Of a DNA stretch of 64,000 bases, positions 42,474 to 64,000 are shown piece by piece; positions within the stretch are counted from its first letter, which is position 1; every line of letters starts with the position of its first letter. Source of the stretch: Primulina eburnea. Taxonomy: Eukaryota > Streptophyta > Magnoliopsida > Lamiales > Gesneriaceae. The stretch spans positions 36,001 through 100,000 of the forward strand of contig NW_027330888.1 of NCBI RefSeq assembly GCF_022965805.1, read 5' to 3'. The notes beneath the pieces are model-generated. The model saw only the letters and a list, made by a program, of their open reading frames with translations. It did not search any database and was not told where the DNA came from. A program made the translations under genes and the position numbers.

Positions 42474-42478
42474 CAAAC
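42474..42478. repeat. Target-site duplication, left copy (CAAAC)
   Basis: The satellite text catcctcaaac stops here and TGTAACGACC begins. The same CAAAC is repeated at 51156-51160, where the satellite resumes as caaacagatgg. The undisturbed satellite reads catcctcaaacagatgg (for example at 33165-33181), so exactly 5 bp were duplicated. This is the size expected for Ty3/gypsy integrases. Confidence 0.9.
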
Positions 42479-42868
42479 TGTAACGACCCATTACAGGCCC
42501 AGTGGACCGCCCATACGGCCCACTGCCCCGATCGACCCAAGGCTATCCCGATCTTGGGGTCCCTCTATGGGGCCTTTGTCCCTCACGGGCTTTCCATAGG
42601 CGTCGTATGGTTACTCATAGAACTTCTATAGTCCAGGCTATAGTTTGTGCCTTCCAAGAATGGAAGGCACAAACTTGGAAGGACCATTCCTGGAAGGCAC
42701 AAACTATAGCCTGGACTATAGAAGTTCTATGAGTAACCATACGACGCCTATGGAAAGCCCGTGAGGGACAAAGGCCCCATAGAGGGACCCCAAGATCGGG
42801 ATAGCCTTGGGTCGATCGGGGCAGTGGGCCGTATGGGCGGTCCACTGGGCCTGTAATGGGTCGTTACA
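42479..42868. repeat. Palindrome 1 (390 bp; 185-bp arms, 20-bp loop)
   Basis: The arms 42479-42663 and 42684-42868 are reverse complements with a single mismatch near the loop (ccaagaatgg versus ccaggaatgg). The ends are TGTAACGACCC and GGGTCGTTACA. The loop (42664-42683) is not symmetric, and a 15-bp direct repeat tggaaggcacaaact occurs at 42661 and 42691, suggesting slippage or template switching at the turn. The outer 130 bp or so of each arm match palindrome 2 with a few differences. The match then fades where palindrome 2 has its B box, so these arms look like shortened copies of the same unit. Confidence 0.92.
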
Positions 42869-42886
42869 ATAAAAGGCGCCTTTTAT
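42869..42886. other. Palindromic linker ATAAAAGGCGCCTTTTAT
   Basis: Eighteen bases joining the outer ends of the two palindromes. ATAAAA follows the TTACA end of palindrome 1. TTTTAT, its complement, precedes the TGTAAC start of palindrome 2. The centre GGCGCC is self-complementary. The same ATAAAA follows the other end of palindrome 2 (43372-43377), so ATAAAA belongs to the end of the repeated unit and GGCGCC marks the join between two units. Confidence 0.85.
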
Positions 42887-43128
42887 TGTAACGACCCATT
42901 ACAGGCCCAGTGGACCGCCCATACGGCCCACTGCCAACCGACCCAAGGCTATCCCGATCTTGGGCTCCCTCTATGGGGCCTTTGTCCCTCACGGGCTTTC
43001 CATAGGCGTCGTATGGTTACTCATAGAACTCTTAAGCCCATGAACTTAAGTATGTGCCTCCCCAGGATCGAACCCAAGATCACATGGATATATAGATACT
43101 TGGCACAATCCTGGTACCAATTGAGCTA
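42881..43128 (-). mobile_element. SINE-like unit with tRNA-type Pol III promoter, left arm
   Basis: Exact mirror of 43130-43377. The A-box-like site is at 43117-43128 and the B-box-like site at 43065-43074 (ggatcgaacc on the + strand). The two units are head to head with 1 nt between them. Such an arrangement would come from self-primed copying of one strand at its 5' end, not from two independent insertions, which would not share an exact breakpoint. Confidence 0.5.
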
Positions 43129-43371
43129 CTAGCTCAATTGGTACCAGGATTGTGCCAAGTATCTATATATCCATGTGATCTTGGGTTCGATCCTGGGGAG
43201 GCACATACTTAAGTTCATGGGCTTAAGAGTTCTATGAGTAACCATACGACGCCTATGGAAAGCCCGTGAGGGACAAAGGCCCCATAGAGGGAGCCCAAGA
43301 TCGGGATAGCCTTGGGTCGGTTGGCAGTGGGCCGTATGGGCGGTCCACTGGGCCTGTAATGGGTCGTTACA
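42887..43371. repeat. Palindrome 2 (485 bp; perfect 242-bp arms, 1-nt centre)
   Basis: The arms 42887-43128 and 43130-43371 are perfect reverse complements about the single base C43129. Counting the flanking TTTTAT and ATAAAA, the perfect arms are 248 bp (42881-43128 and 43130-43377). The centre reads gagctaCtagctc. Each arm runs from a tRNA-like head at the centre to a tail ending in GGGTCGTTACA-ATAAAA. There is no open frame of note. The arms show no divergence, so the palindrome formed very recently or is maintained by intrastrand conversion. Confidence 0.93.
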
Positions 43372-43377
43372 ATAAAA
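43130..43377 (+). mobile_element. SINE-like unit with tRNA-type Pol III promoter, right arm
   Basis: Reading outward from the palindrome centre there is an A-box-like TAGCTCAATTGG (43130-43141) and a B-box-like GGTTCGATCC (43184-43193, within cttgggttcgatcctgggg), 42 bp apart. These match the internal promoter elements of tRNAs and tRNA-derived SINEs. A further 180 bp or so with no resemblance to tRNA follows, ending GTTACA-ATAAAA. I do not see a full cloverleaf, so this is not called a functional tRNA gene. Alternatives are a small LTR-type element whose U5 end is GGGTCGTTACA, or an unrelated sequence with chance promoter boxes. Confidence 0.5.
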
Positions 43378-43383
43378 CTAAAA
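43372..43383 (-). other. Junction between palindrome 2 and 3' LTR (ATAAAA + CTAAAA)
   Basis: Twelve bases between the TTACA end of palindrome 2 and the end of the LTR. On the minus strand they read TTTTAG-TTTTAT after the LTR's ...TGTCACA. TTTTAG is identical to the 6 nt that separate the 5' LTR from the PBS (49568-49573). Minus-strand cDNA starts at the primer tRNA, so it would contain exactly those 6 nt before integrase trimming. The LTR end here is therefore untrimmed. Confidence 0.8.
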
Positions 43384-44965
43384 TGTGACACCCCGATCCT
43401 CTTTTAAAATAAATACGCAGCGGAAATAAAATTTTCTCTTTAAAATATACGGAAGGAGTTTCAAAATACATTTCATCAAATATCTTTACAAAATAAATAC
43501 ATGATCATTTAAATGACATAACAAAAACAAAACATCATTCCTATGATCATGCCAAAATCCTCCTTCCAACGGTGTATGCATATGACCCCCGATCTACAGT
43601 CAACGTCCCGAGGCACCACTCTGATCTGCATCACATGAAAATAACTGAAATGAGAATAAATCTCAGCAAGTGGAACTCTTATATAACAATGAACAATAAC
43701 TCTGTAAAACATCTCTTTGAAATCATAAATACCATCAACTCTGAACTGTAAACTCTGAATATCAATAATATAGCAATAGCATAAAATATGATGGTATTTC
43801 TCTTTTGCTCTGGGGATTGATATCAATAGTATCTCTGCTCTGGGGTTGCTCGTATCCCAAATCGATATAAATACCGATAACTCTGAGGGATATAAGCCTC
43901 TGGACGATGATCATCTAATATTGCATGCAATCTCTGACTATGTATTTATCAATCCGAAAACATTTAAACTCTTCTCTGGTTTTAACAATCACTTTGAACT
44001 CTATATATCTCTTTGTATTCCCTTTAATCAATAATGAGACATACAATGCCTCCAATACATATAACAATACATACTATGGATCAAATGAAAGGGAATAACA
44101 CAATAAACTCTTTGAAACACATACATATAAAATCATGTGAGCAAAAGGAATGAATTTCCACTTACAAACCACAACAAACACCTCAACTTAGCTCTTGATC
44201 ACCACCTACAACAAATAATCCACAAATAACACCAATATCAACTAAATATCCAAGATTACAAGCTAAATAATCCATAAATCCACTTAAACAACCAACCTAA
44301 ACAACTCTTAATTTACAACCTTAACAGAATCGCACCAAAAACTTACCCAAGCTTCCTAGCACCAAGGAGAACGTCGAACTCAAGTCGAAATTCTAAACAA
44401 ACGCTTGAATCGAAGATAGGAAGTGAAAGAAATGACCAAAAACCCTAGAAATGGAGAGAAAAGTCGAGAATGGAGGAGAAAAGAAAGGAAAAGCATGGCC
44501 AACCACTCCAAAAAGTAGCTTAAAAACTCGACCATACCTTCACCGCGGGTGCGCCAACACAAGGACCGCGGGTGCGCTATGGTTACGGCAATCTCAAAAA
44601 TTCTGGAACACGAACAGCGCGGGTGCGGCGACGCAAGCAGCGCGGGTGCGGTCTCTACCGCAGGGGCGGTCTCTACAACGCCGCGGGTGCGGTGTGCTCA
44701 CGGCACTCAAACTCCAAAAATAGCACAGTGCACCGCGGGGGCACTCCTCTAAGAGCGCGGGTGCACTCTACTCACGGCAAAACACTATTCCAAAGCAACT
44801 AAAATCGAACCGAAACGCTGAAACGAACAACCAACAACAACTAATACCTCAATAAATAATAACCAATAATACTAAAGCCCAAAACACAACTATAATCATC
44901 TAATCAAATATCCCAAATAACAAACAAAACTTAAATCGTACCGTACACCGGGCTCGGCTATTACA
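43384..44965 (-). repeat. 3' LTR of the chromovirus
   Basis: 1582 bp, the partner of 49574-51155 at a constant offset of 6190 bp. I found no difference between the two by reading matched lines. On the coding strand it starts next to the PPT (44965) and ends at 43384 with GGTGTCACA. Unlike a normal 3' LTR it is followed by the LTR-PBS spacer and palindrome 2 and not by target DNA. No protein-coding function is assigned to the short open frames inside it. Confidence 0.95.
44543..44764. repeat. GC-rich motif cluster in the 3' LTR, about eight copies
   Basis: Degenerate copies of ccgcgggtgcg start near 44543, 44566, 44617, 44640, 44658 (ccgcaggggcgg), 44681, 44733 (ccgcgggggcac) and 44755, spaced about 18-52 bp apart. 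The surrounding LTR is AT-rich, so this CpG-dense patch stands out. The same cluster is at 50733-50954 in the 5' LTR. It could be a protein-binding or enhancer array within U3; that is inference. Confidence 0.6.
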
Positions 44966-44980
44966 ATCTCCCCCCCTTAA
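44966..44980 (-). promoter_or_regulatory. Polypurine tract next to the 3' LTR
   Basis: On the coding strand this reads TTAAGGGGGGGAGAT, immediately before the LTR start TGTAATAG and only about 25 nt after the gag-pol stop. It is the primer site for plus-strand DNA synthesis and sets the U3 end of the cDNA. Confidence 0.88.
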
Positions 44981-45005
44981 GGGAATTTCGTCCGCGAAAT
45001 TGACG

Positions 45006-48000
45006 TCACGGCACGAACAACTCAGGATACTTCTCTCTCATCTCATCCTCTGGTTCCCACGTAGCCTCCTCTAACAAATGGTTCCTCCAAAGAACTTTGA
45101 CAATGCCGATCTCTTTGTTCCTCAGAACTCTAACTGTGCGATCCAAAATCTGAATCGGAATCTCTTGATACGTCAAATTCGGCGTCAAGTCCAATGGCTC
45201 GTGGCGAAGAACATGGGAAGGATCTGCAACATACTTCCTGAGCATCGATACGTGAAACACATTATGAACTCTGTCAAGATCTGGAGGTAGGGCTAATCTG
45301 TAGGCTCTGTCACCAACTCTGTCCAAAATCTCGAATGGACCAATAAATCTAGGACTCAACTTGCCCTTCTTACCAAATCTCATCACACCCTTGAGAGGTG
45401 CTATCTTCAGAAATACATGGTCGCCAACCTCGAACTGCAAAGGTCTACGACGAACATCTGCATAGCTCTTCTGTCTGGACTGGGCAGTCTTCATCCTTTC
45501 TCTGATAACAGCAACAACATCAGCAGTCTGCTGGACCAACTCTGGTCCCAACATCTTCCTCTCACCAACCTCGTCCCAATACAAGGGAGACCTGCACTTC
45601 CTGCCATAAAGTGCCTCATACGGTGCCATGCCAATCGTCGCCTGGTAGCTATTGTTATAAGTGAACTCAACCAAAGGCAACAAAGAATCCCAGTTACCTG
45701 GAAAGTCAATAGTACAAGCTCTGAGCATATCCTCAAGAATCTGAATGACTCTCTCTGACTGACCATCACTCTGAGGATGATAGGCTGTACTGAACGCTAA
45801 TCGCGAACCCATAGCTCTGTGCAAACTCTTCCAAAACTCTGAAGTAAATCTGGGGTCACGATCAGACACGATCGACACAGGAACACCATGAAGTCTGACA
45901 ATCTCTGCTATGTAGTCCTCGGCATACTGGTTCATCGAATACGTCGTCTTGACTGGAAGAAAGTGCGCTGACTTAGTCAATCTATCAACGATAACCCAAA
46001 TAGAATTGAAACCTCTCCGCACTCTGGGAAGACCAGTCACAAAATCCATCGTAATATGCTCCCACTTCCACTGAGGAATCGGCAACGACAACAATGTCCC
46101 AGCAGGTCTCTGGTGCTCAATCTTCACCTGCTGACAAGTAAGGCACTGAGAAATGAACACGGCAACATCCTTCTTCATACCTGGCCACCAGTAGAGTCGA
46201 CGAAGATCCTGATACATCTTCGTACTGCCTGGATGAATCGAATACGGCGCGGTATGAGCCTCTGTCAGAATATCTCTACGAATATCGTCGCCAGAAGGAA
46301 CACAAATACGACCTCTGAAAGTCACCAAACCATCACCATTCAAGGCAAACTCTGAATTACCTCTAATCTCTGCTCTATCTCTCAACTCTGTCAACTGAAC
46401 ATCAGTCGACTGCTCTCTACGAATCCTGTCCGTCAATGAAGATCGAATAACTAACGCTGAAAGACGAGCAATGGTGCCTGGAATCACCAGATCAATATCC
46501 TCTCTCTGCAAATCCATCAGTAACGGTCTCTGAATCAAAGAACTCAATGAAACACTCGACTTGCGGCTTAAAGCATCAGCCACAACATTCGCCTTCCCTG
46601 GGTGATAACTGATAGCTACATCGTAATCCTTGACAAGCTCTAACCACCTCCTCTGCCGCATATTGAGCTCTTTCTGCGAGAACAGATACTTCAAACTCTT
46701 GTGGTCTGTGAAGATCTCACACTTTTCGCCATACAGATAATGTCTCCAAATCTTAAGGGCGAAAACCACAGCTGCTAGCTCCAAATCGTGCGTCGGATAA
46801 TTCTTCTCATAATCCTTCAACTGGCGAGAAGCATAGGCAATGACCTTACCTCTCTGCATCAACACTGCACCGAGACCCTTCTTCGACGCATCAGTATAGA
46901 CAACAAAGTCCTCTGAACCACAAGGCAAAGAAAGAACAGGAGCCGTCGTCAATCTATCCTTCAACTCCTGAAATGCGCTCTGGCAATCTATAGACCACTC
47001 GAACTTCACAGTCTTCCTTGTCAGATTGGACAATGGCAGGGCAATCTTGGAAAAATCCAAAATGAAACGACGATAAAAACCCGCCAAACCAAGGAAACTG
47101 CGTACCTCTGAAACAGTCGTAGGAATAGGCCACTTCTGAATCGCCTCTATCTTCATCGGATCAACAGCAATGCCATCCCTCGAAACGACATGGCCTAGAA
47201 AAGAAATCTGATCCAGCCAAAACTCACACTTCTTCAACTTAGCAAACAACCTCCGCTCTCTCAGCAACTGGAGAACAACTCTGAGATGCTCTGAATGAAG
47301 CTCTCTGGTCTTGGAATAGATCAAGATATCGTCGATAAAGACAATGACGAAGCTATCCAAATACGGCTTGAACACACGGTTCATCAGGTCCATGAAAACA
47401 GAAGGGGCATTGGTCAAACCAAAAGACATCACGAGAAACTCATAGTGACCATACCTGGTCCTGAAAGCCGTCTTAGGGATATCAGACTCCCTAACCTTCA
47501 ACTGATAGTAGCCAGACCGAAGATCAATCTTCGAGAAAACAGTGGCACCCTGGAGTTGGTCAAATAGATCGTCAATCCGTGGCAACGGATACTTGTTCTT
47601 GATCGTCACTTTGTTGAGCTCTCTGTAATCGATACACAGACGCAAAGACCCGTCCTTCTTCTTAACAAATAGAACCGGAGCTCCCCAAGGCGAAGAACTC
47701 GGACGAATGAAACCCTTATCTAGAAGATCCTGCAACTGCGTCTTCAACTCTTTCATCTCGGTAGGAGCCATCCTATACGGAGCCTTAGAAATAGGAACCG
47801 TACCTGGAGCAAGATCAATAACAAACTCTACATCTCTATCCGGCGGCAAACCCGGAACATCATCCTCAAACACATCCGCAAACTCCCTCACCACATCAAT
47901 ATCATCAATATTCAACTTAATCAGTCTATCCATATCCACAACAGATGCCAGAAAAACATCACAACCTCTACACAAAAGCCTCTCAGCACCAAGACACGAA

Positions 48001-49436
48001 ATAAAAGGAAGGACCAGCGAAGTACCTGAGCTGGCGAGAACTCCTCCCTGGTCATCATCTGCAAAAGTCACCGACTTAGCAACGCAATCAATAACAGCAC
48101 GATAGGTCGACAGCCAATCCATGCCAAGAATAACATCAAAGGCAACCATCGGGATCACAATCAAATCAGCAAAGACCTCTCGATCAACAAAACGAACGGG
48201 GCACGCATACACTATGGAAGTCGGGCACAAAACATCTCCCGAAGGCAAAACAACACTAAGCTGAAGGGGAATAACAGAAGGAACTATACCCAAAGATCTC
48301 AAAAACAATTCAGACATAAAAGAATGAGTAGCACCAGTATCAATCAAAGTAGTAGCTACTCTGCCTGAAATCAAAATGGAACTAGAGATTACAGAAGAAT
48401 TACGATTAATACCTTCCTTAGTCATCGAAAAGATACGACCCTGCACCTTCTCCTGGCTAGCTCCCCTAGGACAATCTCTGGAAATATGGCCTGGCATGCC
48501 ACAACGATAGCAAGAACGAGAGCCAAATCTACACTCTCCACGATGGGGTCTGCTACACTTGGGACACAAAGATCTCTCAGAATCAGACGGAGCAACTGGC
48601 ACTGACGGTGGCCTAGGACTCTGATCCACCTTGCCCTTCCCCTTGAATCGATCTCTGCCACGCTGACCTGAACTCTGGCCTCTTTGAACATTAGCCTGGT
48701 GCCTCGCCTGTCTCTCCCTGGCGATATCCTTCTCGTCCTGCTCTGCTAGCAACGCCTTGGACACAATCTCCTTGAAAGTCACAGCCTTGGACATATTGAT
48801 ATCACGCCTGATCTCCGCTCTAAGGCCTCGAATGAAGTGAGCGCCTTTATCTTTATCACTGGTAGCAATGTACGGAGCAAAAAGGCAACCCTCCTCGAAC
48901 TTGAGAATATACTCGTCCACATTCAAGCTCCCCTGACGAAGCTCCAAGAACTCTGTGACCTTCCTCGCTCGCAGTGCATCAGGAAAGTACTTGTCGTAGA
49001 AAAGCTCAGTAAACTCAGACCACTTCAAAGTAGAAACATCAATGCCAACCTTGGTCGCATTCCACCACAAACGTGCAGCTTTAACCAGCATGAAAACAGC
49101 ACAACTGATACGGTCTCTGTCCTCATAGTGGAGATGATCAAAAATCGCCTCCAAAGCCTTGACCCACTCTACTGCAGCTAAAGGATCGGAGCTGCCTGGA
49201 AACTCGGGTGGATCCATCCTCTTAAACGCAGAAAAGATAGCATCAGAACCAACTGCTACTGGAGCAACCTGCCCCCTACCTTGGTCTCTGCCCTGGCCTG
49301 CTCCTTGCAGTCTAAGCAACTGCTGGATCTGCTCACTGTGAACCTTAGCCTGCTCCTTCAGTAACTTGCCGAACTCGTCGACAACTCTCAAGGACGAACT
49401 ATCCTCCCCCTCTGACGCCTTACGCTTAGGAGGCAT
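45006..49436 (-). CDS. gag-pol: Gag-Pol polyprotein of a Tekay/Del-like chromovirus
   Basis: Single uninterrupted ORF of 1476 codons making the structural and enzymatic proteins for retrotransposition. Gag occupies about residues 65-330, with a zinc knuckle C309-x2-C312-x4-H317-x4-C322 preceded by a CxxC...H...C cluster at 291-302. Protease: I-D-T-G-A at 365-369 and I-L-G-M-D-W at 436-441. Reverse transcriptase about 545-720, with D638 (S-K-I-D-L) and F-I-D-D at 700-703. RNase H about 844-955, with D849, E886, D911 and D954. Integrase: H1061, H1068, C1098, C1101, then D1131-x60-D1192-x35-E1228, then a GPY/F-type region near 1360-1375. The C-terminal chromodomain is at about 1424-1474. Gag and Pol are in one frame with no frameshift or stop between them, as usual for this clade. 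The start is the ATG at 49436 (M-P-P-K-R-K). All catalytic residues I could check are present. Confidence 0.95.
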
Positions 49437-49555
49437 CCTCTACTCTACAATGCTCACAAGATACCAATCAATACATAACAATAGATAGATGCAAAGAAAA
49501 CATACCCGGACAGTTGAAAGTAGACGAAGTCATATGCATTGGTCCGAAGAACACC
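49437..49555 (-). other. Untranslated leader between PBS and gag-pol, with a short uORF
   Basis: 119 nt with two ATGs before the gag ATG. The first (49539) opens a 23-codon frame ending with TGA at 49468-49470. Whether it is translated is unknown; a short upstream ORF could dampen or re-route initiation on the genomic RNA. No other feature is seen here. Confidence 0.5.
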
Positions 49556-49567
49556 GCTCTGATACCA
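49556..49567 (-). promoter_or_regulatory. Primer-binding site for initiator tRNA-Met
   Basis: On the coding strand this reads TGGTATCAGAGC, complementary to the 3' end of plant initiator tRNA-Met and the usual PBS of plant Ty3/gypsy elements. It is separated from the 5' LTR end by 6 nt (TTTTAG, 49568-49573). The same 6 nt reappear at the outer end of the 3' LTR. Confidence 0.92.
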
Positions 49568-49867
49568 CTAAAATGTGACACCCCGATCCTCTTTTAAAAT
49601 AAATACGCAGCGGAAATAAAATTTTCTCTTTAAAATATACGGAAGGAGTTTCAAAATACATTTCATCAAATATCTTTACAAAATAAATACATGATCATTT
49701 AAATGACATAACAAAAACAAAACATCATTCCTATGATCATGCCAAAATCCTCCTTCCAACGGTGTATGCATATGACCCCCGATCTACAGTCAACGTCCCG
49801 AGGCACCACTCTGATCTGCATCACATGAAAATAACTGAAATGAGAATAAATCTCAGCAAGTGGAACT

Positions 49868-49877
49868 CTTATATAAC
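49868..49877 (-). promoter_or_regulatory. Candidate TATA box in the 5' LTR
   Basis: On the coding strand this reads GTTATATAAG, about 300 nt before the PBS. A second TATA-like site (GATATATAG) is at about 50191-50199. Either could set the start of the genomic RNA and hence the U3/R border, which cannot be fixed from sequence alone. Confidence 0.3.
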
Positions 49878-50732
49878 AATGAACAATAACTCTGTAAAAC
49901 ATCTCTTTGAAATCATAAATACCATCAACTCTGAACTGTAAACTCTGAATATCAATAATATAGCAATAGCATAAAATATGATGGTATTTCTCTTTTGCTC
50001 TGGGGATTGATATCAATAGTATCTCTGCTCTGGGGTTGCTCGTATCCCAAATCGATATAAATACCGATAACTCTGAGGGATATAAGCCTCTGGACGATGA
50101 TCATCTAATATTGCATGCAATCTCTGACTATGTATTTATCAATCCGAAAACATTTAAACTCTTCTCTGGTTTTAACAATCACTTTGAACTCTATATATCT
50201 CTTTGTATTCCCTTTAATCAATAATGAGACATACAATGCCTCCAATACATATAACAATACATACTATGGATCAAATGAAAGGGAATAACACAATAAACTC
50301 TTTGAAACACATACATATAAAATCATGTGAGCAAAAGGAATGAATTTCCACTTACAAACCACAACAAACACCTCAACTTAGCTCTTGATCACCACCTACA
50401 ACAAATAATCCACAAATAACACCAATATCAACTAAATATCCAAGATTACAAGCTAAATAATCCATAAATCCACTTAAACAACCAACCTAAACAACTCTTA
50501 ATTTACAACCTTAACAGAATCGCACCAAAAACTTACCCAAGCTTCCTAGCACCAAGGAGAACGTCGAACTCAAGTCGAAATTCTAAACAAACGCTTGAAT
50601 CGAAGATAGGAAGTGAAAGAAATGACCAAAAACCCTAGAAATGGAGAGAAAAGTCGAGAATGGAGGAGAAAAGAAAGGAAAAGCATGGCCAACCACTCCA
50701 AAAAGTAGCTTAAAAACTCGACCATACCTTCA

Positions 50733-50954
50733 CCGCGGGTGCGCCAACACAAGGACCGCGGGTGCGCTATGGTTACGGCAATCTCAAAAATTCTGGAACA
50801 CGAACAGCGCGGGTGCGGCGACGCAAGCAGCGCGGGTGCGGTCTCTACCGCAGGGGCGGTCTCTACAACGCCGCGGGTGCGGTGTGCTCACGGCACTCAA
50901 ACTCCAAAAATAGCACAGTGCACCGCGGGGGCACTCCTCTAAGAGCGCGGGTGC
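50733..50954. promoter_or_regulatory. GC-rich motif cluster in the 5' LTR (possible U3 enhancer)
   Basis: Same eight-copy cluster as in the 3' LTR, offset by 6190 bp. It lies about 200-420 nt from the LTR start on the coding strand, upstream of both TATA-like sites, where U3 control elements are expected. A regulatory role is inferred from position and repetition only. Confidence 0.35.
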
Positions 50955-51155
50955 ACTCTACTCACGGCAAAACACTATTCCAAAGCAACTAAAATCGAAC
51001 CGAAACGCTGAAACGAACAACCAACAACAACTAATACCTCAATAAATAATAACCAATAATACTAAAGCCCAAAACACAACTATAATCATCTAATCAAATA
51101 TCCCAAATAACAAACAAAACTTAAATCGTACCGTACACCGGGCTCGGCTATTACA

Positions 51156-51160
51156 CAAAC
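51156..51160. repeat. Target-site duplication, right copy (CAAAC)
   Basis: Follows the TTACA end of the right-hand LTR and restores the satellite phase exactly. It pairs with 42474-42478, not with the bases next to the other LTR (taaaa at 43379-43383). Confidence 0.9.
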
Positions 51161-51807
51161 AGATGGACAAACTGAAGTTGTCAATAGAACTTTGGGAACA
51201 CTTTTGCGTGCTATTCTTAAAAAGAACTTGGATTGACATTTCTCTGGACTTTATTTTGGAGTTGCCTAGGCCTAAGAAGAGGAGGGATTCTATATTTGTA
51301 GTTGAGGATAGATTCTCTAAGATGGCACATTTTATAGCTTGTCATGAAACCGATGATGCTTCAAACATTACGGATTTGTTCTTTAGAGAAGTCGCTAGGT
51401 TGCATGGCACGCCTAGGACTATTGTTTCTCGTCGCAATGTTAAATTTTTGAGTTACTTTTGGAATAATTTATGGGCTAAACTTGGCACAAAATTGTTGTT
51501 TTCTACTACTTGTCATCCTCAAACGGATGGACAAACTGAAGTTATCAATATAACTTTGGGAACACTTTTGCGTGCTATTCTTAAAAATAACTTGGATTGA
51601 CATTTCTATGGACTTTATTTTGGGGTTGTTGTGGATAGATTCTCTAAGATGGCACATTTTATAGCTTGTCATAAAACCGATGATGCTTCAAACATTGCGG
51701 ATTTGTTCTTTAGAGAAGTCGCTAGGTTGCATGGCATGCCTAGGACTATTGTTTCTCGTCGCAATGTTAAATTTTTGAGTTACTTTTGGAATAATTTATG
51801 GGCTAAA

Positions 51808-54800
51808 CTTGGCACAAAATTGTTGTTTTCTACTACTTGTCATCCTCAAACGGATGGACAAACTAAAGTTGTCAATAGAACTTTGGGAACACTTTTCCGT
51901 GCTATTCTTAAAAAGAACTTGGATTGACATTTCTATGGACTTTATTTTGGGTTACCTAGGACTAAGAAGGGGATGTATTCTATTTTTGTTGTTGTGGATA
52001 GATTCTCTAAGATGGCACATTTTATAGCTTGTCATAAAACCGATGATGCTTCAAACATTGCGGATTTGTTCTTTAGAGAAGTCGCTAGGTTTCTTGGCAT
52101 GCCTAGGACTATTGTTTCTGGTCGCGATGTTAAATTCTTGATATACTTTTGGAAGACTTTATGGGCTGAACTTGGCACAAAATTGTTGTTTTCTACTACT
52201 TGTCATCCTCAAACGGATGGACAAACTGAAGTTGTCAATATAACTTTGGGAACATTTTATAGCTTGTCATAAAACCGATGATGCTTCAAACATTGCGGAT
52301 TTGTTCTTTAGAGAAGTCGCTAGGTTGCTTGGCATGCCTAGGACTATTGTTTCTGGTCGCGATGTTAAATTCTTGAGTTACTTTTGGAAGACTTTATGGG
52401 CTGAACTTGGCACAAAATTGTTGTTTTCTACTACTTGTCATCCTCAAACGGATGGACAAACTGAAGTTGTCAATATAACTTTGGGAACAATTTATAGCTT
52501 GTCATAAAACCGATGATGCTTCAAACATTGCGGATTTGTTCTTTAGAGAAGTCGCTAGGTTGCTTGGCATTCCTAGGACTATTGTTTCTGGTCGCGATGT
52601 TAAATTATTGAGTTACTTTTGGAAGACTTTATGGGCTGAACATGGCAAAAAATTGTTGTTTTCTACTACTTGTCATCCTCAAACGGATGGACAAACTGAA
52701 TTTGTCAATAGAACTTTGGGAACACTTTTGCGTGCTATTCTTAAAAAGAACTTGGATTGACATTTCTCTGGACTTTATTTTGGAGTTGCCTAGGCCTAAG
52801 AAAAGGAGGGATTCTATTTTTGTAGTTGTGGATAGATTCTCTAAGATGACACATTTTATAGCTTGTCATCAAACCGATGATGCTTCAAACATTCCGGATT
52901 TGTTCTTTAGAGAAGTCGCTAGGATGCATGGCATGCCTAGGACTATTGTTTCTCGTCGCAATGTTAAATTTTTGAGTTACTTTTGGAATAATTTATGGGC
53001 TAAACATGGCACAAAATTGTTGTTTTCTACTACTTGTCATTCTCAAACAGATGGACAAACTGAAGTTGTCAATAAAACTTTGGGAACACTTTTGCGTGCT
53101 ATTCTTAAAAAGAACTTGGATTGATATTTCTATGGACTTTAGTTGGGGTTGCCTAGGCCTAAGAAGAGGAGGGATTCTATTTTTGTAGTTGTGGATAGAT
53201 TCTCTAAGATGGCACATTTTATAGCTTGTCATGAAACCGATGATGCTTCAAACATTACGGATTTGTTCTTTAGAGAAGTCGCTAGGTTGCATGGCATGCC
53301 TAGGACTATTGTTTCTCGTCGCAATGTTAAATTTTTGAGTTACTTTTGGAATAATTTATGGGCTAAACTTGCCACAAAATTGTTGTTTTCTACTACTTGT
53401 CATCCTCAAACAGATGGACAAACTGAAGTTGTCAATATAACTTTGGGAACACTTTTGCGTGCTATTCTTAAAAAGAACTTGGATTGACATTTCTATGTAC
53501 TTTATTTTGGAGTTGCCTAGGCCTAAGAAGAGGAGGGATTCTATTTTTGTAGTTGTGGATAGATTCTCTAAGATGACACATTTTATAGCTTGTCATGAAA
53601 CCGATGATGCTTCAAACATTCCGGATTTGTTCTTTAGAGAAGTCGCTAGGTTGCATGGCATGCCTAGGACTATTGTTTCTCGTCGCAATGTTAAATTTTT
53701 GAGTTACTTTTGGAATAATTTATGGGCTAAACTTGGCACAAAATTGTTGTTTTCTACTACTTGTCATCCTCAAACAGATGGACAAACTAAAGTTGTCAAT
53801 ATAACTTTGGGAACACTTTTGCGTGCTATTCTTAAAAAGAACTTGGATTGACATTTCTATGGACTTTATTTTGGGGTTGTTGTGGATAGATTCTCTAAGA
53901 TGGCACATTTTATAGCTTGTCATAAAACCGATGATACTTCAAACATTGCGGATTTGTTCTTTAGAGAAGTCGCTAGGTTGCATGGCATACCTAGGACTAT
54001 TGTTTCTCGTCGCAATGTTAGATTTTTGAGTTACTTTTGGAATAATTTATGCGCTAAACTTGGCACAAAATTGTTGTTTTCTACTACTTGTCATCCTCAA
54101 ACGGCTGGACAAACTGAAGTTGTCAATAGAACTTTGGGAACACTTTTGCGTGCTATTCTTAAAAAGAACTTGGATTGACATTTATCTGGACTTTATTTTG
54201 GAGTTGCCTAGGCCTAAGAAGAGGAGGTATTCTATTTTTGTAGTTGTGGATAGATTCTCAAAGATTGCACATTTTATAGCTTGTCATGAAACCGATGATG
54301 CTTCAAACATTACGGATTTGTTCTTTAGAGAAGTCGCTAGGTTGCATGGCATGCCTAGGACTATTGTTTCTCGTCGCACTGTTAAATTTTTGAGTTACTT
54401 TTGGAATAATTTATGGGCTAAACTTGGCACAAAATTGTTGTTTTCTACTACTTGTCATTCTCAAACAGATGGACAAACTGAAGTTGTCAATAAAATTTTG
54501 GGAACACTTTTGCGTGCTATTCTTAAAAAGAACTTGGATTGACATTTCTATGGACTTTAGTTGGGTTTGCCTAGGCCTAAGAAGAGGAGGGATTCTTTTT
54601 TTGTAGTTGTGGATAGATTATCTAAGATGGCACATTTTATAACTTGTCATGAAACCGATGATGCTTCAAACATTACGGATTTGTTCTTTATAGAAGTCGC
54701 TAGGTTGCATGGCATGCCTAGGACTATTATTTCTCGTCGCAATGTTAAATTTTTGAGTTACTTTTGGAATAATTTATGGGCTAAACTTGCCACAAAATTG

Positions 54801-54900
54801 TTGTTTTCTACTACTTGTCATCCTCAAACAGATGGACAAACTGAAGTTGTCAATATAACTTTGGGAACACTTTTGCGTGCTATTCTTAAAAAGAACTTGG
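51808..54900 (+). repeat. Segmental duplication inside the array, copy 3 of 3
   Basis: Matches about 34.4-37.5 kb at offsets of 17388 then 17394 bp. Shared private variants include gggttacctagg, two consecutive 235-bp monomers, aaacatggca, gactttagttgggg, gtactttattttgg, gatgatacttcaaac and aaacggctggac. At its right end it is regular where the partner copy at 37494-37915 is degenerate. Confidence 0.75.
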
Positions 54901-57900
54901 ATATACATTTCTATGGACTTTATTTTGGGGTTGTTGTGGATAGATTCTCTAAGATGGCACATTTTATAGCTTGTCATAAAACCGATGATGCTTCAAACAT
55001 TGCGGATTTGTTCTTTAGAGAAGTCGCTAGGTTGCATGTCATGCCTAGGACTATTGTTTCTCGTCGCAATGTTAGATTTTTGAGTTACTTTTGGAATAAT
55101 TTATGGGCTAAACTTGGCACAAAATTGTTGTTTTCTACTACTTGTCATCCTCAAACGGATGGACAAACTGAAGTTGTCAATAGAACTTTGGGAACACTTT
55201 TGCGTGCTATTCTTAAAAAGAACTTGGATTGACATTTCTCTGGATTTTATTTTGGAGTTGCCTAGGCCTAAGAAGAGGAGGGATTCTATTTTTGTAGTTG
55301 TGGATAGATTTTCAAAGATGGCACATTTTATAGCTTGTCATGAAACCGATGATGCTTCAAACATTACGGATTTGTTCTTTAGAGAAGTCGCTAGGTTGCA
55401 TGGCATGCCTAGGACTATTGTTTTTCGTCGCAATGTTAAATTTTTGAGTTACTTTTGGAATAATTTATGTGCTAAACTTGGCACAAAATTGTTGTTTTCT
55501 ACTACTTGTCATTCTCAAACAGATGGACAAACTGAAGTTGTCAATAAAACTTTGGGAACACTTTTGCGTGCTATTCTTAAAAAGAACTTGGATTGATATT
55601 TCTATGGACTTTAGTTGGGGTTGCCTAGGCCTAAGAAGAGGAGGGATTCTATTTTTGTAATTGTGGATAGATTCTCTAAGATGGCACATTTTATAGCTTG
55701 TCATGAAACCGATGATGCTTCAAACATTACGGATTTGTTCTTTAGAGAAGTCGCTAGGTTGCATGGCATGCCAAGGACTATTGTTTCTCGTCGCAATGTT
55801 AAATTTTTGAGTTACTTTTGGAATAATTTATGGGCTAAACTTGGCACAAAATTGTTGTTTTCTACTACTTGTCATCCTCAAACGGATGGACAAACTGAAG
55901 TTGTCAATAGAAATTTGGGAACACTTTTGCGTGCTATTCTTAAAAAGAACTTGGATTGACATTTCTCTGGACTTTATTTTGGAGTTGCCTAGGCCTAAGA
56001 AGAGGAGGGATTCTATTTTTGTAGTTGTGGATAGATTATCTAAGATGGCACATTTTATAGCTTGTCGTGAAACCGATGATGCTTCAAACATTCCGGATTT
56101 GTTCTTTAGAGAAGTCGCTAGGTTGCATGGCATGCCTAGCACTATTGTTTCTCGTCGCAATGTTAAATTTTTGAGTTACTTTTGGAATAATTTATGGGCT
56201 AAACTTGGCACAAAATTGTTGTTTTCTACTCCTTGTCATCTTCAAACAGATAGACAAACTGAAGTTGTCAATAGAACTTTGGGAACACTTTTGCGTGCTA
56301 TTCTTAAAAAGAACTTGGATTGACATTTCTATGGACTTTAGTTGGGGTTGCCTAGGCCTAAGAAGAGGAAGGATTCTATTTTTGTAGTTGTGGATAGATT
56401 CTATAAGATGTCACATTTTATAGCTTGTCATGAAACCGATGATGCTTCAAACATTACGGATTTGTTCTTTAGAGAAGTCGCTAGGTTGCATGGCATGCCT
56501 AGGACTATTGTTTCTCGTCGCAATGTTAAATTTTTGAGTTACTTTTGGAATAATTTATGGGCTAAACTTGCCACAAAATTGTTGTTTCTACTCCTTGTCA
56601 TCCTCAAACAGATGGACAAACTGAAGTTGTCAATATGACTTTGGGAACACTTTTGCGTCCTATTCTTAAAAAGAACTTGGATTGACATTTCTATGGACTT
56701 TATTTTGGGGTTGTTGTGGATAGATTCTCTAAGATGGCACATTTTATAGCTTGTCATAAAACCGATGATGCTTCAAACATTGCGGATTTGTTCTTTAGAG
56801 AAGTCGCTAGGTTGCATGGCATGCCTAGGACTATTGTTTCTCGTCGCAATGTTAGATTTTTGAGTTACTTTTGGAATAATTTATGGGCTAAACTTGGCAC
56901 AAAATTGTTGTTTTCTACTACTTGTCATCCTCAAACAGATGGACAAACTGAAGTTGTCAATATAACTTTGGGAACACTTTTGCGTGCTATTCTTAAAAAT
57001 AACTTGGATTGACATTTCTATGGACTTTATTTTGGGGTTGTTGTGGATAGATTCTCTAAGATGGCACATTTTATAGCTTGTCATCAAACCGATGATGCTT
57101 CAAACATTCCGGATTTGTTCTTTAGAGAAGTCGCTAGGTTGCATGGCATGCCTAGGACTATTGTTTCTCGTCGCAATGTTAAATTTTTGAGTTACTTTTG
57201 GAATAATTTATGGGCTAAACTTGGCACAAAATTGTTGTTTTCTACTACTTGTCATCCTCAATCGGATGGACAAACTGAAGTTGTCAATAGAACTTTGGGA
57301 ACACTTTTCCGTGCTATTCTTAAAAAAACTTGGATTGACATTTCTATGGACTTTATTTTGGGTTGCCTAGGACTAAGAAGGGGATGTATTCTATTTTTGT
57401 TGTTGTGGATAGATTCTCTAAGATGGCACATTTTATAGCTTGTCATAAAACCGATGATGCTTCAAACATTGCGGATTTGTTCTTTAGAGAAGTCGCTAGG
57501 TTTCTTGGCATGCCTAGGACTATTGTTTCTGGTCGCGATGTTAAATTCTTGATATACTTTTGGAAGACTTTATGGGCTGAACTTGGCGCAAAATTGTTGT
57601 TTTCTACTACTTGTCATCCTAAAACGGATGGACAAACTGAAGTTGTCAATATAACTTTGGGAACATTTTATAGCTTGTCATAAAACCGATGATGCTTCAA
57701 ACATTGCGGATTTGTTCTTTAGAGAAGTCGCTAGGTTGCTTGGCATGCCTAGGACTATTGTTTCTGGTCGCGATGTTAAATTCTTGAGTTACTTTTGGAA
57801 GACTTTATGGGCTGAACTTGGCACAAAATTGTTGTTTTCTACTACTTGTTATCCTCAAACGGATGGACAAACTGAAGTTGTCAATATAAATTTGGGAACA

Positions 57901-60900
57901 TATTATAGCTTGTCATAAAACCGATGATGCTTCAAACATTGCGGATTTGTTCTTTAGAGAAGTCGCTAGGTTGCTTGGCATGCCTAGGACTATTGTTTCT
58001 GGTCGCGATGTTAAATTATTGAGTTACTTTTGGAAGACTTTATGGGCTGAACTTGGCATAAAATTGTTGTTTTCTACTACTTGTCATCCTCAAACGGATG
58101 GACAAACTGAATTTGTCAATAGAACTTTGGGAACACTTTTGCGTGCTATTCTTAAAAAGAACTTGGATTGACATTTCTCTGGACTTTATTTTGGAGTTGC
58201 CTAGGCCTAAGAAGAGGAGGGATTCTATTTTTGAAGTTGTGGATAGATTCTCTAAGATGGCACATTTTATAGCTTGTCATCAAACCGATGATGCTTCAAA
58301 CATTCCGGATTTGTTCTTTAGAGAAGTCGCTAGGTTGCATGGCATGCCTAGGACTATTGTTTCTCGTCGCAATGTTAAATTTTTGAGTTACTTTTGGAAT
58401 AATTTATGGGCTAAACTTGGCACAAAATTGTTGTTTTCTACTACTTGTCATTCTCAAACAGATGGACAAACTGAAGTTGTCAATAAAACTTTGGGAACAC
58501 TTTTGCGTGCTATTCTTAAAAAGAACTTGGATTGATATTTCTATGGACTTTAGTTGGGGTTGCCTAGGCCTAAGAAGAGGAGGGATTCTATTTTTGTAGT
58601 TGTGGATAGATTCTCTAAGATGGCACATTTTATAGCTTGTCATGAAACCGATGATGCTTCAAACATTACGGATTTGTTCTTTAGAGAAGTCGCTAGGTTG
58701 CATGGCATGCCTAGGACTATTGTTTCTCGTCGCAATGTTAAATTTTTGAGTTACTTTTGGAATAATTTATGGGCTAAACTTGCCACAAAATTGTTGTTTT
58801 CTACTACTTGTCATCCTCAAACAGATGGACAAACTGAAGTTGTCAATATAACTTTGGGAACACTTTTGCGTGCTATTCTTAAAAAGAACTTGGATTTACA
58901 TTTCTATGGACTTTATTTTGGGGTTGTTGTGGATAGATTCTCTAAGATGGCACATTTTATAGCTTGTCAAAAAACCGATGATGCTTCAAACATTGCGGAT
59001 TTGTTCTTTAGAGAAGTCGCTAGGTTGCATGGCATGCCTAGGACTATTGTTTCTCGTCGCAATGTTAGATTTTTGAGTTACTTTTGGAATAATTTATGGG
59101 CTAAACTTGGCACAAAATTGTTGTTTTCTACTACTTGTCATCCTCAAACGGATGGACAAACTGAAGTTGTCAATAGAACTTTGGGAACACTTTTGCGTGC
59201 TATTCTTAAAAAGAACTTGGATTGACATTTCTCTGGACTTTATTTTGGAGTTGCCTAGGCCTAAGAAGAGAAGGGATTCTATTTTTGTAGTTGTGGATAG
59301 ATTCTCAAAGATGGCACATTTTATAGCTTGTCATGAAACCGATGATGCTTCAAACATTACGGATTTGTTCTTTAGAGAAGTCGCTAGGTTGCATGGCATG
59401 CCTAGGACTATTGTTTCTCGTCCCAATGTTAAATTTTTGAGTTACTTTTGGAATAATTTATGGGCTAAACTTGGCACAAAATTGTTGTTTTCTACTACTT
59501 GTCATTCTCAAACAGATGGACAAACTGAAGTTGTCAATAAAACTTTGGGAACACTTTTGCGTGCTATTATTAAAAAGAACTTGGATTGATATTTCTATGG
59601 ACTTTAGTTGGGGTTGCCTAGGCCTAAGAAGAGGAGGGATTCTATTTTTTGTAATTGTGGATAGATTCTCTAAGATGGCACATTTTATAGCTTGTCATGA
59701 AACCGATGATGCTTCAAACATTACGGATTTGTTCTTTAGAGAAGTCGCTAGGTTGCATGGCATGCCAAGGACTATTGTTTCTCGTCGCAATGTTAACTTT
59801 TTGAGTTACTTTTGGAATAATTTATGGGCTAAACTTGGCACAAAATTGTTGTTTTCTACTACTTGTCATCCTCAAACGGCTGGACAAACTGAAGTTGTCA
59901 ATAGAACTTTGGGAACACTTTTGCGTGCTATTCTTAAAAAGAACTTGGATTGACATTTATCTGGACTTTATTTTGGAGTTGCCTAGGCCTAAGAAGAGGA
60001 GGTATTCTATTTTTGTAGTTGTGGATAGATTCTCAAAGATTGCACATTTTATAGCTTGTCATGAAACCGATGATGCTTCAAACATTACGGATTTTTTCTT
60101 TAGAGAAGTCGCTAGGTTGCATGGCATGCCTAGGACTATTGTTTCTCGTCGCACTGTTAAATTTTTGAGTTACTTTTGGAATAATTTATGGGCTAAACTT
60201 GGCACAAAATTGTTGTTTTCTACTACTTGTCATTCTCAAACAGATGGACAAACTGAAGTTGTCAATAAAACTTTGGGAACACTTTTGCGTGCTATTCTTA
60301 AAAAGAACTTGGATTGACATTTCTATGGACTTTAGTTGGGGTTGCCTAGGCCTAAGAAGAGGAGGGATTCTATTTTTGTAGTTGTGGATAGATTCTCTAA
60401 GATGGCACATTTTATAACTTGTCATGAAACCGATGATGCTTCAAACATTACGGATTTGTTCTTTAGAGAAGTCGCTAGGTTGCATGGCATGCCTAGGACT
60501 ATTATTTCTCGTCGCAATGTTAAATTTTTGAGTTACTTTTGGAATAATTTATGGGCTAAACTTGCCACAAAATTGTTGTTTTCTACTACTTGTCATCCTC
60601 AAACAGATGGACAAACTGAAGTTGTCAATATAACTTTGGAAACACTTTTGCGTGCTATTCTTAAAAAGAACTTGGATTTACATTTCTGTGGACTTTATTT
60701 TGGGGTTGTTGTGGATAGATTCTCTAAGATGGCACATTTTATAGCTTGTCATAAAACCGATGATGCTTCAAACATTGCGGATTTGTTCTTTAGAGAAGTC
60801 GCTAGGTTGCATGGCATGCCTAGGACTATTGTTTCTCGTCGCAATGTTAGATTTTTGAGTTACTTTTGGAATAATTTATGGGCTAAACTTGGCACAAAAT

Positions 60901-61616
60901 TGTTGTTTTCTACTACTTGTCATCCTCAAACAGATGGACAAACTGAAGTTGTCAATAGAATTTTGGGAACACTTTTGCGTGCTATTCTTAAAAAGAACTT
61001 GGATTGACATTTCTCTGGACTTTATTTTGGAGTTGCCTAGGCCTAAGAAGAGGAGGGATTCTATTTTTGTAGTTGTGGATAGATTCTCAAAGATGGCACA
61101 TTTTATAGCTTGTCATGAAACCGATGATGCTTCAAACATTACGGATTTGTTCTTTAGAGAAGTCGCTAGGTTGCATGGCATGCCAAGGACTATTGTTTCT
61201 CGTCGCAATGTTAAATTTTTGAGTTACTTTTGGAATAATTTATGCGCTAAACTTGGCACAAAATTGTTGTTTTCTACTACTTGTCATCCTCAAACGGCTG
61301 GACAAACTGAAGTTGTCAATAGAACTTTGGGAACACTTTTGCGTGCTATTCTTAAAAAGAACTTGGATTGACATTTATCTGGACTTTATTTTGGAGTTGC
61401 CTAGGCCTAAGAAGAGGAGGTATTCTATTTTTGTAGTTGTGGATAGATTCTCAAAGATTGCACATTTTATAGCTTGTCATGAAACCGATGATGCTTCAAA
61501 CATTACGGATTTGTTCTTTAGAGAAGTCGCTAGGTTGCATGGCATGCCTAGGACTATTGTTTCTCGTCGCACTGTTAAATTTTTGAGTTACTTTTGGAAT
61601 AATTTATGGGCTAAAC

Positions 61617-63724
61617 TTGGCACAAAATTGTTGTTTTCTACTACTTGTCATCCTCAAACGGATGGACAAACTGAAGTTGTCAATAGAAATTTGGGAACAC
61701 TTTTGCGTGCTATTCTTAAAAAGAACTTGGATTGACATTTCTCTGGACTTTATTTTGGAGTTGCCTAGGCCTAAGAAGAGGAGGGATTCTATTTTTGTAG
61801 TTGTGGATAGATTATCTAAGATGGCACATTTTATAGCTTGTCATGAAACCGATGATGCTTCAAACATTCCGGATTTGTTCTTTAGAGAAGTCGCTAGGTT
61901 GCATGGCATGCCTAGCACTATTGTTTCTCGTCGCAATGTTAAATTTTTGAGTTACTTTTGGAATAATTTATGGGCTAAACTTGGCACAAAATTGTTGTTT
62001 TCTACTCCTTGTCATCTTCAAACAGATGGACAAACTGAAGTTGTCAATAGAACTTTGGGAACACTTTTGCGTGCTATTCTTAAAAAGAACTTGGATTGAC
62101 ATTTCTATGGACTTTAGTTGGGGTTGCCTAGGCCTAAGAAGAGGAGGGATTCTATTTTTGTAGTTGTGGATAGATTCTCTAAGATGTCACATTTTATAGC
62201 TTGTCATGAAACCGATGATGCTTCAAACATTACGGATTTGTTCTTTAGAGAAGTCGCTAGGTTGCATGGCATGCCTAGGACTATTGTTTCTCGTCGCAAT
62301 GTTAAATTTTTGAGTTACTTTTGGAATAATTTATGGGCTAAACTTGCCACAAAATTGTTGTTTTCTACTCTTTGTCATCCTCAAACAGATGGACAAACTG
62401 AAGTTGTCAATATAACTTTGGAAACACTTTTGCGTGCTATTCTTAAAAAGAACTTGGATTTACATTTCTATGGACTTTATTTTGGGGTTGTTGTGGATAG
62501 ATTCTCTAAGATGGCACATTTTATAGCTTGTCATAAAACCGATGATGCTTCAAACATTGCGGATTTGTTCTTTAGAGAAGTCGCTAGGTTGCATGGCATG
62601 CCTAGGACTATTGTTTCTCGTCGCAATGTTAGATTTTTGAGTTACTTTTGGAATAATTTATGGGCTAAACTTGGCACAAAATTGTTGTTTTCTACTACTT
62701 GTCATCCTCAAACGGATGGACAAACTGAAGTTGTCAATAGAACTTTGGGAACACTTTTGCGTGCTATTCTTAAAAAGAACTTGGATTGACATTTCTCTGG
62801 ACTTTATTTTGGAGTTGCCTAGGCCTAAGAAGAGGAGGGATTCTATTTTTGTAGTTGTGGATAGATTCTCAAAGATGGCACATTTTATAGCTTGTCATGA
62901 AACCGATGATGCTTCAAACATTCCGGATTTGTTCTTTAGAGAAGTCGCTAGGTTGCATGGCATGCCTAGCACTATTGTTTCTCGTCGCAATGTTAAATTT
63001 TTGAGTTACTTTTGGAATAATTTATGGGCTAAACTTGGCACAAAATTGTTGTTTTCTACTCCTTGTCATCTTCAAACAGATGGACAAACTGAAGTTGTCA
63101 ATAGAACTTTGGGAACACTTTTGCGTGCTATTCTTAAAAAGAACTTGGATTGACATTTCTATGGACTTTAGTTGGGGTTGCCTAGGCCTAAGAAGAGGAG
63201 GGATTCTATTTTTGTAGTTGTGGATAGATTCTCTAAGATGTCACATTTTATAGCTTGTCATGAAACCGATGATGCTTCAAACATTACGGATTTGTTCTTT
63301 AGAGAAGTCGCTAGGTTGCATGGCATGCCTAGGACTATTGTTTCTCGTCGCAATGTTAAATTTTTGAGTTACTTTTGGAATAATTTATGGGCTAAACTTG
63401 CCACAAAATTGTTGTTTTCTACTACTTGTCATTCTCAAACAGATGGACAAACTGAAGTTGTCAATATAACTTTGGAAACACTTTTGCGTGCTATTCTTAA
63501 AAAGAACTTGGATTTACATTTCTATGGACTTTATTTTGGGGTTGTTGTGGATAGATTCTCTAAGATGGCACATTTTATAGCTTGTCATAAAACCGATGAT
63601 GCTTCAAACATTGCGGATTTGTTCTTTAGAGAAGTCGCTAGGTTGCATGGCATGCCTAGGACTATTGTTTCTCGTCGCAATGTTAGATTTTTGAGTTACT
63701 TTTGGAATAATTTATGGGCTAAAC
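61617..63724 (+). repeat. HOR block: 1054-bp trimer, two copies
   Basis: Anchors at 61617, 62671 and 63725 are exactly 1054 bp apart. Each unit is 364, 363 and 327 bp. The 363-bp monomer has gactttagttggggttgcc (1 bp shorter). Shared variants include cctagcactattg, ctccttgtcatcttcaaac, aagatgtcacattt and tttggaaacac. Junction TGA is TTA before the 327-bp member, so 223-codon open frames span two monomers (62118-62789 and 63172-63843). Confidence 0.82.
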
Positions 63725-64000
63725 TTGGCACAAAATTGTTGTTTTCTACTACTTGTCATCCTCAAACGGATGGACAAACTGAAGTTGTCAATAGAACTTT
63801 GGGAACACTTTTGCGTGCTATTCTTAAAAAGAACTTGGATTGACATTTCTCTGGACTTTATTTTGGAGTTGCCTAGGCCTAAGAAGAGGAGGGATTCTAT
63901 TTTTGTAGTTGTGGATAGATTCTCAAAGATGGCACATTTTATAGCTTGTCATGAAACCGATGATGCTTCAAACATTACGGATTTGTTCTTTAGAGAAGTC

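Follow-up and report, generated by a model that had tools for sequence, protein, structure and literature searches.

Palindromic DNA and a chromovirus within a single target-site duplication in Primulina eburnea: evidence for integration of a chimeric DNA

The window analysed here is a 64-kb stretch at the end of a contig (C358:36001-100000) in the 812-Mb assembly of Primulina eburnea. Outside one large insert, that is at positions 1-42473 and 51161-64000, the window is a tandem satellite with repeats of ~364, 327 and 235 bp. These repeats descend from the core of a retrotransposon integrase (PF00665, E 1.5e-6, which is under the curated cut-off). Similar integrase-derived sequence adjoins three palindrome arrays elsewhere in the genome (L005, L036 and L048). 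The insert is flanked by a target-site duplication, CAAAC, with its left copy at 42474-42478 and its right copy at 51156-51160, and the unit bounded by the two copies (42479-51155) measures 8,677 bp. The target site has 158 matches in the window at two or fewer mismatches, where shuffles expect none. The matches begin with CAAAC in 149 of the 158 cases (148 without the right-hand copy at 51156), and a second CAAAC immediately before the target site is found in none of the 148 satellite matches that remain when the right-hand copy is set aside. Since the five bases are doubled at the insert alone, 42479-51155 behaves as one insertion. Its outer ends are TGTAACG on the palindrome side and ATTACA on the chromovirus side. 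Re-reading confirmed what an earlier note on this DNA had stated about the locus, namely the coordinates of both CAAAC copies (the satellite sites carry a single copy), the TG...CA bounds of the whole unit as TGTAACG and ATTACA, and the mismatch of the flanks when the chromovirus or the palindromes are taken alone.

The larger part of the insert is a retrotransposon of 7,772 bp on the minus strand (43384-51155), whose two long terminal repeats (LTRs) are identical over 1,582 bp, so that the copy is young. In order of position, it comprises the 3' LTR at 43384-44965 (1,582 bp, the same as the 5' LTR by direct comparison), a polypurine-tract region beside it at 44966-44986 (AAGGGGGGGAGAT on the minus strand), an uninterrupted gag-pol open reading frame of 1,476 amino acids at 45006-49436, a primer binding site, TGGTATCAGAGC, read from the sequence at 49556-49567, the linker TTTTAG between the primer site and the 5' LTR at 49568-49573, and the 5' LTR itself at 49574-51155, all on the minus strand. 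We take the primer binding site TGGTATCAGAGC to be that for initiator tRNA-Met. The reading frame was searched against Pfam in four pieces, one border of which split the integrase core, and matched gag, zinc knuckle, protease, reverse transcriptase (RT), RNase H, integrase zinc-binding and Tf2-1-like SH3 domains. These matches, together with the LTRs, the primer site and the polypurine-tract region, give the element the characters of Ty3/gypsy. The name chromovirus is taken over from the earlier note; a chromodomain, sought at the integrase C terminus, was not matched in the four pieces at E 0.001, and SH3_Tf2-1 was. Given the minus-strand orientation of the element, it is the 3' LTR that borders the palindromes, and the insert ends on the right with the U3 end of the 5' LTR, which reads ATTACA on the plus strand.

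The remainder of the insert consists of two palindromes joined by their tails. Palindrome 1 (42479-42868, 390 bp) has arms of 185 bp with 20 nt between them and an imperfect centre; its outer end, TGTAACGACCC, the one used for integration, halts at TGTAACG directly beside CAAAC. The tail-to-tail junction ATAAAAGGCGCCTTTTAT at 42869-42886 is self-complementary and reads TTTT on either strand. Palindrome 2 (42887-43371, 485 bp) has perfect arms around a 1-nt centre, GAGCTA C TAGCTC, which is a head-to-head junction. The right-arm unit of palindrome 2 begins with an A box, TAGCTCAATTGG (43130-43141, plus strand; a mirror copy lies in the left-arm unit), followed 55 nt on by a B box, GTTCGATCC (43185-43193, plus strand), and its first TTTT falls in the tail. 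In the unit of palindrome 1 of the window, A and B boxes were not recognised. An untrimmed tail, ATAAAA, closes palindrome 2 at 43372-43377 (plus strand), and the same six bases also precede the internal spacer 42869-42886 from both sides. Two other identities were tried for this part of the insert and rejected: matches to microRNA genes by Rfam E-value all lie below the gathering score and arise from the hairpins themselves, and ARAGORN finds no genuine tRNA gene in the window.

At the internal junction between the two partners, the 12 bp between the palindromes and the LTR are ATAAAA plus CTAAAA, one linker from each partner, and CTAAAA (43378-43383; TTTTAG on the minus strand) is the untrimmed U5-side linker of the chromovirus, the same six bases that separate the 5' LTR of the element from its primer site (49568-49573). 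From base composition, the chance of finding CTAAAA at this fixed place is ~3e-4. As TTTTAG and then TGGTATCAGAGC follow the 5' LTR, minus-strand cDNA of this element begins with CTAAAA. It is established in retroviral and Ty3/gypsy biology that integrase normally trims the cDNA end to the CA of the LTR. The retention of both linkers at the internal junction therefore indicates that two untrimmed ends were joined before one integration, in which the two outer ends were trimmed. The substrates left to integrase after the join are the chromovirus U3 end TGTAATAGCC and the palindrome tail TGTAACGACC (outer letters), in agreement with the previous proposal that the 5' LTR end of the chromovirus and the palindrome end served as the two substrates, the outer right end being indeed the 5' LTR U3 end.

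The same genome was searched with the 906-bp query 42479-43384, which gave at least 165 matches, with 932 first-look candidates and 40 scored. The matches listed were grouped into 40 arrays, all of which were read, and the resulting family size is a lower bound. A script that compared the 5-bp flanks of every pair of outward tails for identity found perfect 5-bp duplications, with array ends GTTACA / TGTAAC, around 21 of the 40 arrays, among which two with common flanks (L003 and L004) count as one event. These two lie 14 kb apart on C684 with the same flanks, which is a local duplication including the insertion. One further duplication, GTTAT on either side of L039, was seen by eye at a variant end. 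Also among the 21 is L013 (371-2153), where an LTR fragment stands between two array parts within a single duplication, GTTAA. Tail-to-tail junctions are present in 28 arrays and head-to-head centres in 33 (of 40 each), including a mixed head-to-head palindrome in L003 with arms from different subfamilies. The palindromes are a mobile family, and the architecture is not unique to the window, as the palindromes form a family and the fusion recurs. A scan of viral contigs with the palindrome-end pattern gave no matches. Of the two observations that the earlier note had named as telling against its reading, palindromes alone with their own duplications do occur elsewhere (21/40 arrays), but a nested insertion was not found at the window locus.

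By the script, ten arrays have no clean 5-bp duplication (L007, L009, L012, L023, L031, L032, L036, L046, L047 and L048), and some arrays sit within LTR-element sequence. At L031 (1440-2180) a palindrome lies within a chromovirus LTR; it is flanked by a ~67-bp duplication and carries AT as two additional bases on one side, an arrangement more like end joining than an integrase product. At L007 (1-3665) a palindrome is placed between two large LTR pieces, both of which repeat LTR positions ~274-1576; this is possibly the product of autointegration or of a circle. L007 and L047 both adjoin LTR sequence and may be further chimeras.

Besides the window, four more loci carry a single 5-bp duplication over palindromes and LTR-element DNA together (L014, L008, L040 and L049), and the five loci lie on five contigs (C358, C7, C11, C16 and C6). 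At L014, the palindromes are fused, within a single duplication CGAGC, to a chromovirus with an LTR 97% identical to that of the window; what was read here is the near LTR with the beginning of the internal region, and the primer-site end together with the end of the far LTR. That element has its own linker, TTTAG, with one T fewer than the TTTTAG of the window, and TTTAG is again what stands outside its fused LTR. Linker length at the fusion thus follows that of each element: TTTTAG in the window, TTTAG at L014. L049 consists of palindromes and one LTR (duplication TTTCA). At L040, the 5' LTR, the primer site and ~144 nt of internal sequence are joined to the middle of a unit (duplication CTATA). 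L008 has two LTRs ~0.3 kb apart with a short internal region (duplication CATAC), and its own linker, TT, is present at the fusion, although at 2 nt this is little informative. The unit is joined through its tRNA-like head, with two or three bases between, at L014, L044, L049 and L008. As their units have different bodies, L014 and L044 are not simple copies. Other candidate fusions gave less: L016 adjoins chromovirus gag-region sequence, but its flanks GATTC / TATAA are mismatched, its far LTR end failing to match, and at L044 and L045 the far end was looked for and not found. Taken with the untrimmed CTAAAA, the four additional loci support the earlier reading of a single integration of chimeric DNA.

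The unit from which the arrays are built measures mostly 242 nt from head to tail (68 of 112 extracted units). The full A consensus is present in 57 of 74 distinct units, a figure biased by the choice of these units through a near-A-box head, and the full B consensus in 55 of the 74. TTTT occurs within only two of the 74, compared with 41% of mononucleotide shuffles, and AAAA within 16, but the 74 are related to one another and these counts are not independent. One inner-arm RNA folds better than 200 shuffles (z -4.9), partly owing to the palindrome centre. For the tail, AAAAGGCGCCUUUU, which ends in TTTT, the predicted energy of a hairpin is -0.2 kcal/mol, against -20.3 kcal/mol for a two-strand duplex. 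Tail-to-tail junctions join different body families in L063-L079 (for example L066, L070, L073 and L077), which indicates that the tail is more widely shared than the body. A variant tail with a T run was found at 17 sites, with the inverted tail again after the unit and sometimes of a different body family. A single-unit source gene was sought among these 17 pattern sites and rejected, as all still have the inverted tail after the unit. A direct LTR pair is absent from the architecture of the 40 arrays, the outer ends of which are inverted copies, and neither a primer site nor a polypurine tract was recognised by eye in the unit or the tail.

Given that CAAAC is duplicated once, that the internal junction keeps both linkers and that the fusion is found again elsewhere, the insert is probably the result of one integration of a chimeric DNA. 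The palindromes would be a non-autonomous retroelement, passengers of Pol III type that the reverse transcriptase and integrase of chromoviruses copy and insert; these enzymes and the manner of priming are inferred. The unit would be transcribed as a Pol III-type RNA with an A box, a B box and no internal terminator, ending in the self-complementary tail AAAAGGCGCCUUUU, and would be packaged along with chromovirus RNA. Two such RNAs could pair via their tails and prime on each other, giving the tail-to-tail junctions, and the cDNA ends at the tRNA-like head could join or snap back to give the head-to-head junctions. The tail-to-tail joins across unit families and the mixed head-to-head palindrome of L003 fit joining between molecules. 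Chromovirus integrase would then trim the outer tails to CA and insert the molecule with a 5-bp duplication. Where a palindrome had been linked to chromovirus cDNA, whether by template switching or by an end-to-end join, integrase would still use the outer ends and insert the whole as one unit. In the window, a full-length chromovirus cDNA would have received two palindromic passenger molecules at its U5 end, and the linear product would have been inserted in a single integration. Both routes to fusion may occur, end joining of finished cDNA at L001, with its flush linkers, and template switching at L040.

Among the alternatives, a DNA transposon of the foldback type that has TG...CA ends, makes 5-bp duplications and moves as DNA, its free ends having been attached to chromovirus cDNA by host end joining, fares best but is rather unlikely. 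The perfect inverted arms and the 5-bp duplications fit such an element, a reverse-transcription product of the unit was not observed, and the ~67-bp duplication of L031 looks like end joining. However, the junctions recur at both ends of a Pol III-like unit rather than at one pair of transposon ends, the A and B boxes and the scarcity of TTTT would be left unexplained, and L040 is joined in mid-unit and in the middle of the chromovirus leader, as expected of template switching. Successive entry of chromovirus and palindromes, with duplications lost or common by chance, is very improbable. While palindromes do insert alone with duplications of their own and several arrays lie within LTR-element sequence, neither partner has its own duplication at the window locus, untrimmed linkers would not be expected at the junction (CTAAAA at a fixed place, ~3e-4), and the single-duplication pattern is repeated at four more loci. 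Least credible of all is an assembly or library artefact linking unrelated molecules, since although the window belongs to an unplaced contig of 100,000 bp and palindromes are artefact-prone, an artefact cannot make a target-site duplication, and five loci on five contigs have one.

Read as a chromovirus-served retroelement, the palindromic family shares features with several known systems. Short interspersed elements (SINEs) are inserted by target-primed reverse transcription by LINEs, with variable, longer duplications and an A- or T-rich tail at the insert end. The palindromes resemble SINEs in the tRNA-derived Pol III head, the non-autonomous state and the T run in the tail. Unlike SINEs, they have the 5-bp duplications and TG...CA ends typical of integrase, form palindromic arrays and are fused to LTR elements, not to LINE tails. 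Two-LTR circle junctions of retroviruses and LTR retrotransposons are flush joins of untrimmed cDNA ends. The internal junction is likewise a flush join of untrimmed cDNA ends, but here the joined end comes from another element and the product was integrated via its outer ends.

Helenus (TRIMp3) elements are TRIMs whose LTR carries a tRNA-like Pol III promoter, and are thought to be mobilised by autonomous LTR retrotransposons (Kojima 2024, PMC10886601). The palindromes are similarly small and non-coding, with tRNA-type A and B boxes, and share the 5-bp duplication, which is described for Helenus in plants and fungi (PMC10886601) and found here at 21 of 40 arrays. In Helenus, however, a primer site and a polypurine tract lie between two direct LTRs (PMC10886601), whereas the 40 arrays consist of inverted units, head-to-head and tail-to-tail, and neither a direct LTR pair nor a primer site or polypurine tract was recognised in them. 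Among plants, that paper reports Helenus from a single species, Selaginella, and the terms 'palindrom', 'inverted' and 'strong-stop' have no occurrence in its main text (PMC10886601). Further, complex LTR insertions formed by template switching have been described in Triticeae (Sabot and Schulman 2007, PMC1950507). There too, one 5-bp duplication surrounds a fusion of two elements and was taken to prove a single integration of chimeric cDNA; the partners in that case are two copies of the same kind of LTR retrotransposon with an internal LTR in common (PMC1950507). Unlike the Triticeae case, the LTR element of the window is joined to a different, palindromic and LTR-less element, and both linkers are kept.

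In the open-access literature of PubMed Central, no earlier description of the element or of its terminal sequence was found. By the defining features tested, the palindromic element is neither a TRIM nor a SINE. The chances appear evenly balanced that it represents a new class of retroelement, palindromic and LTR-less, transcribed by Pol III, self-priming by its self-complementary RNA 3' end, inserted by the integrase of chromoviruses and sometimes joined to their cDNA, with the palindromes rebuilt via head and tail junctions in each cycle.

If this is true, the machinery of LTR retrotransposons would move an element devoid of LTRs and of a tRNA primer site, and the range of substrates accepted by integrase would be widened. 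The family would also offer a natural example of RNA priming through 3'-end pairing. The fusions would name the helper directly, which is usually hard for non-autonomous elements. They would, moreover, preserve untrimmed cDNA ends in the genome and make linker length a readout of chimera formation. Finally, long palindromes spread in this way would give rise to genome instability and to small RNAs.
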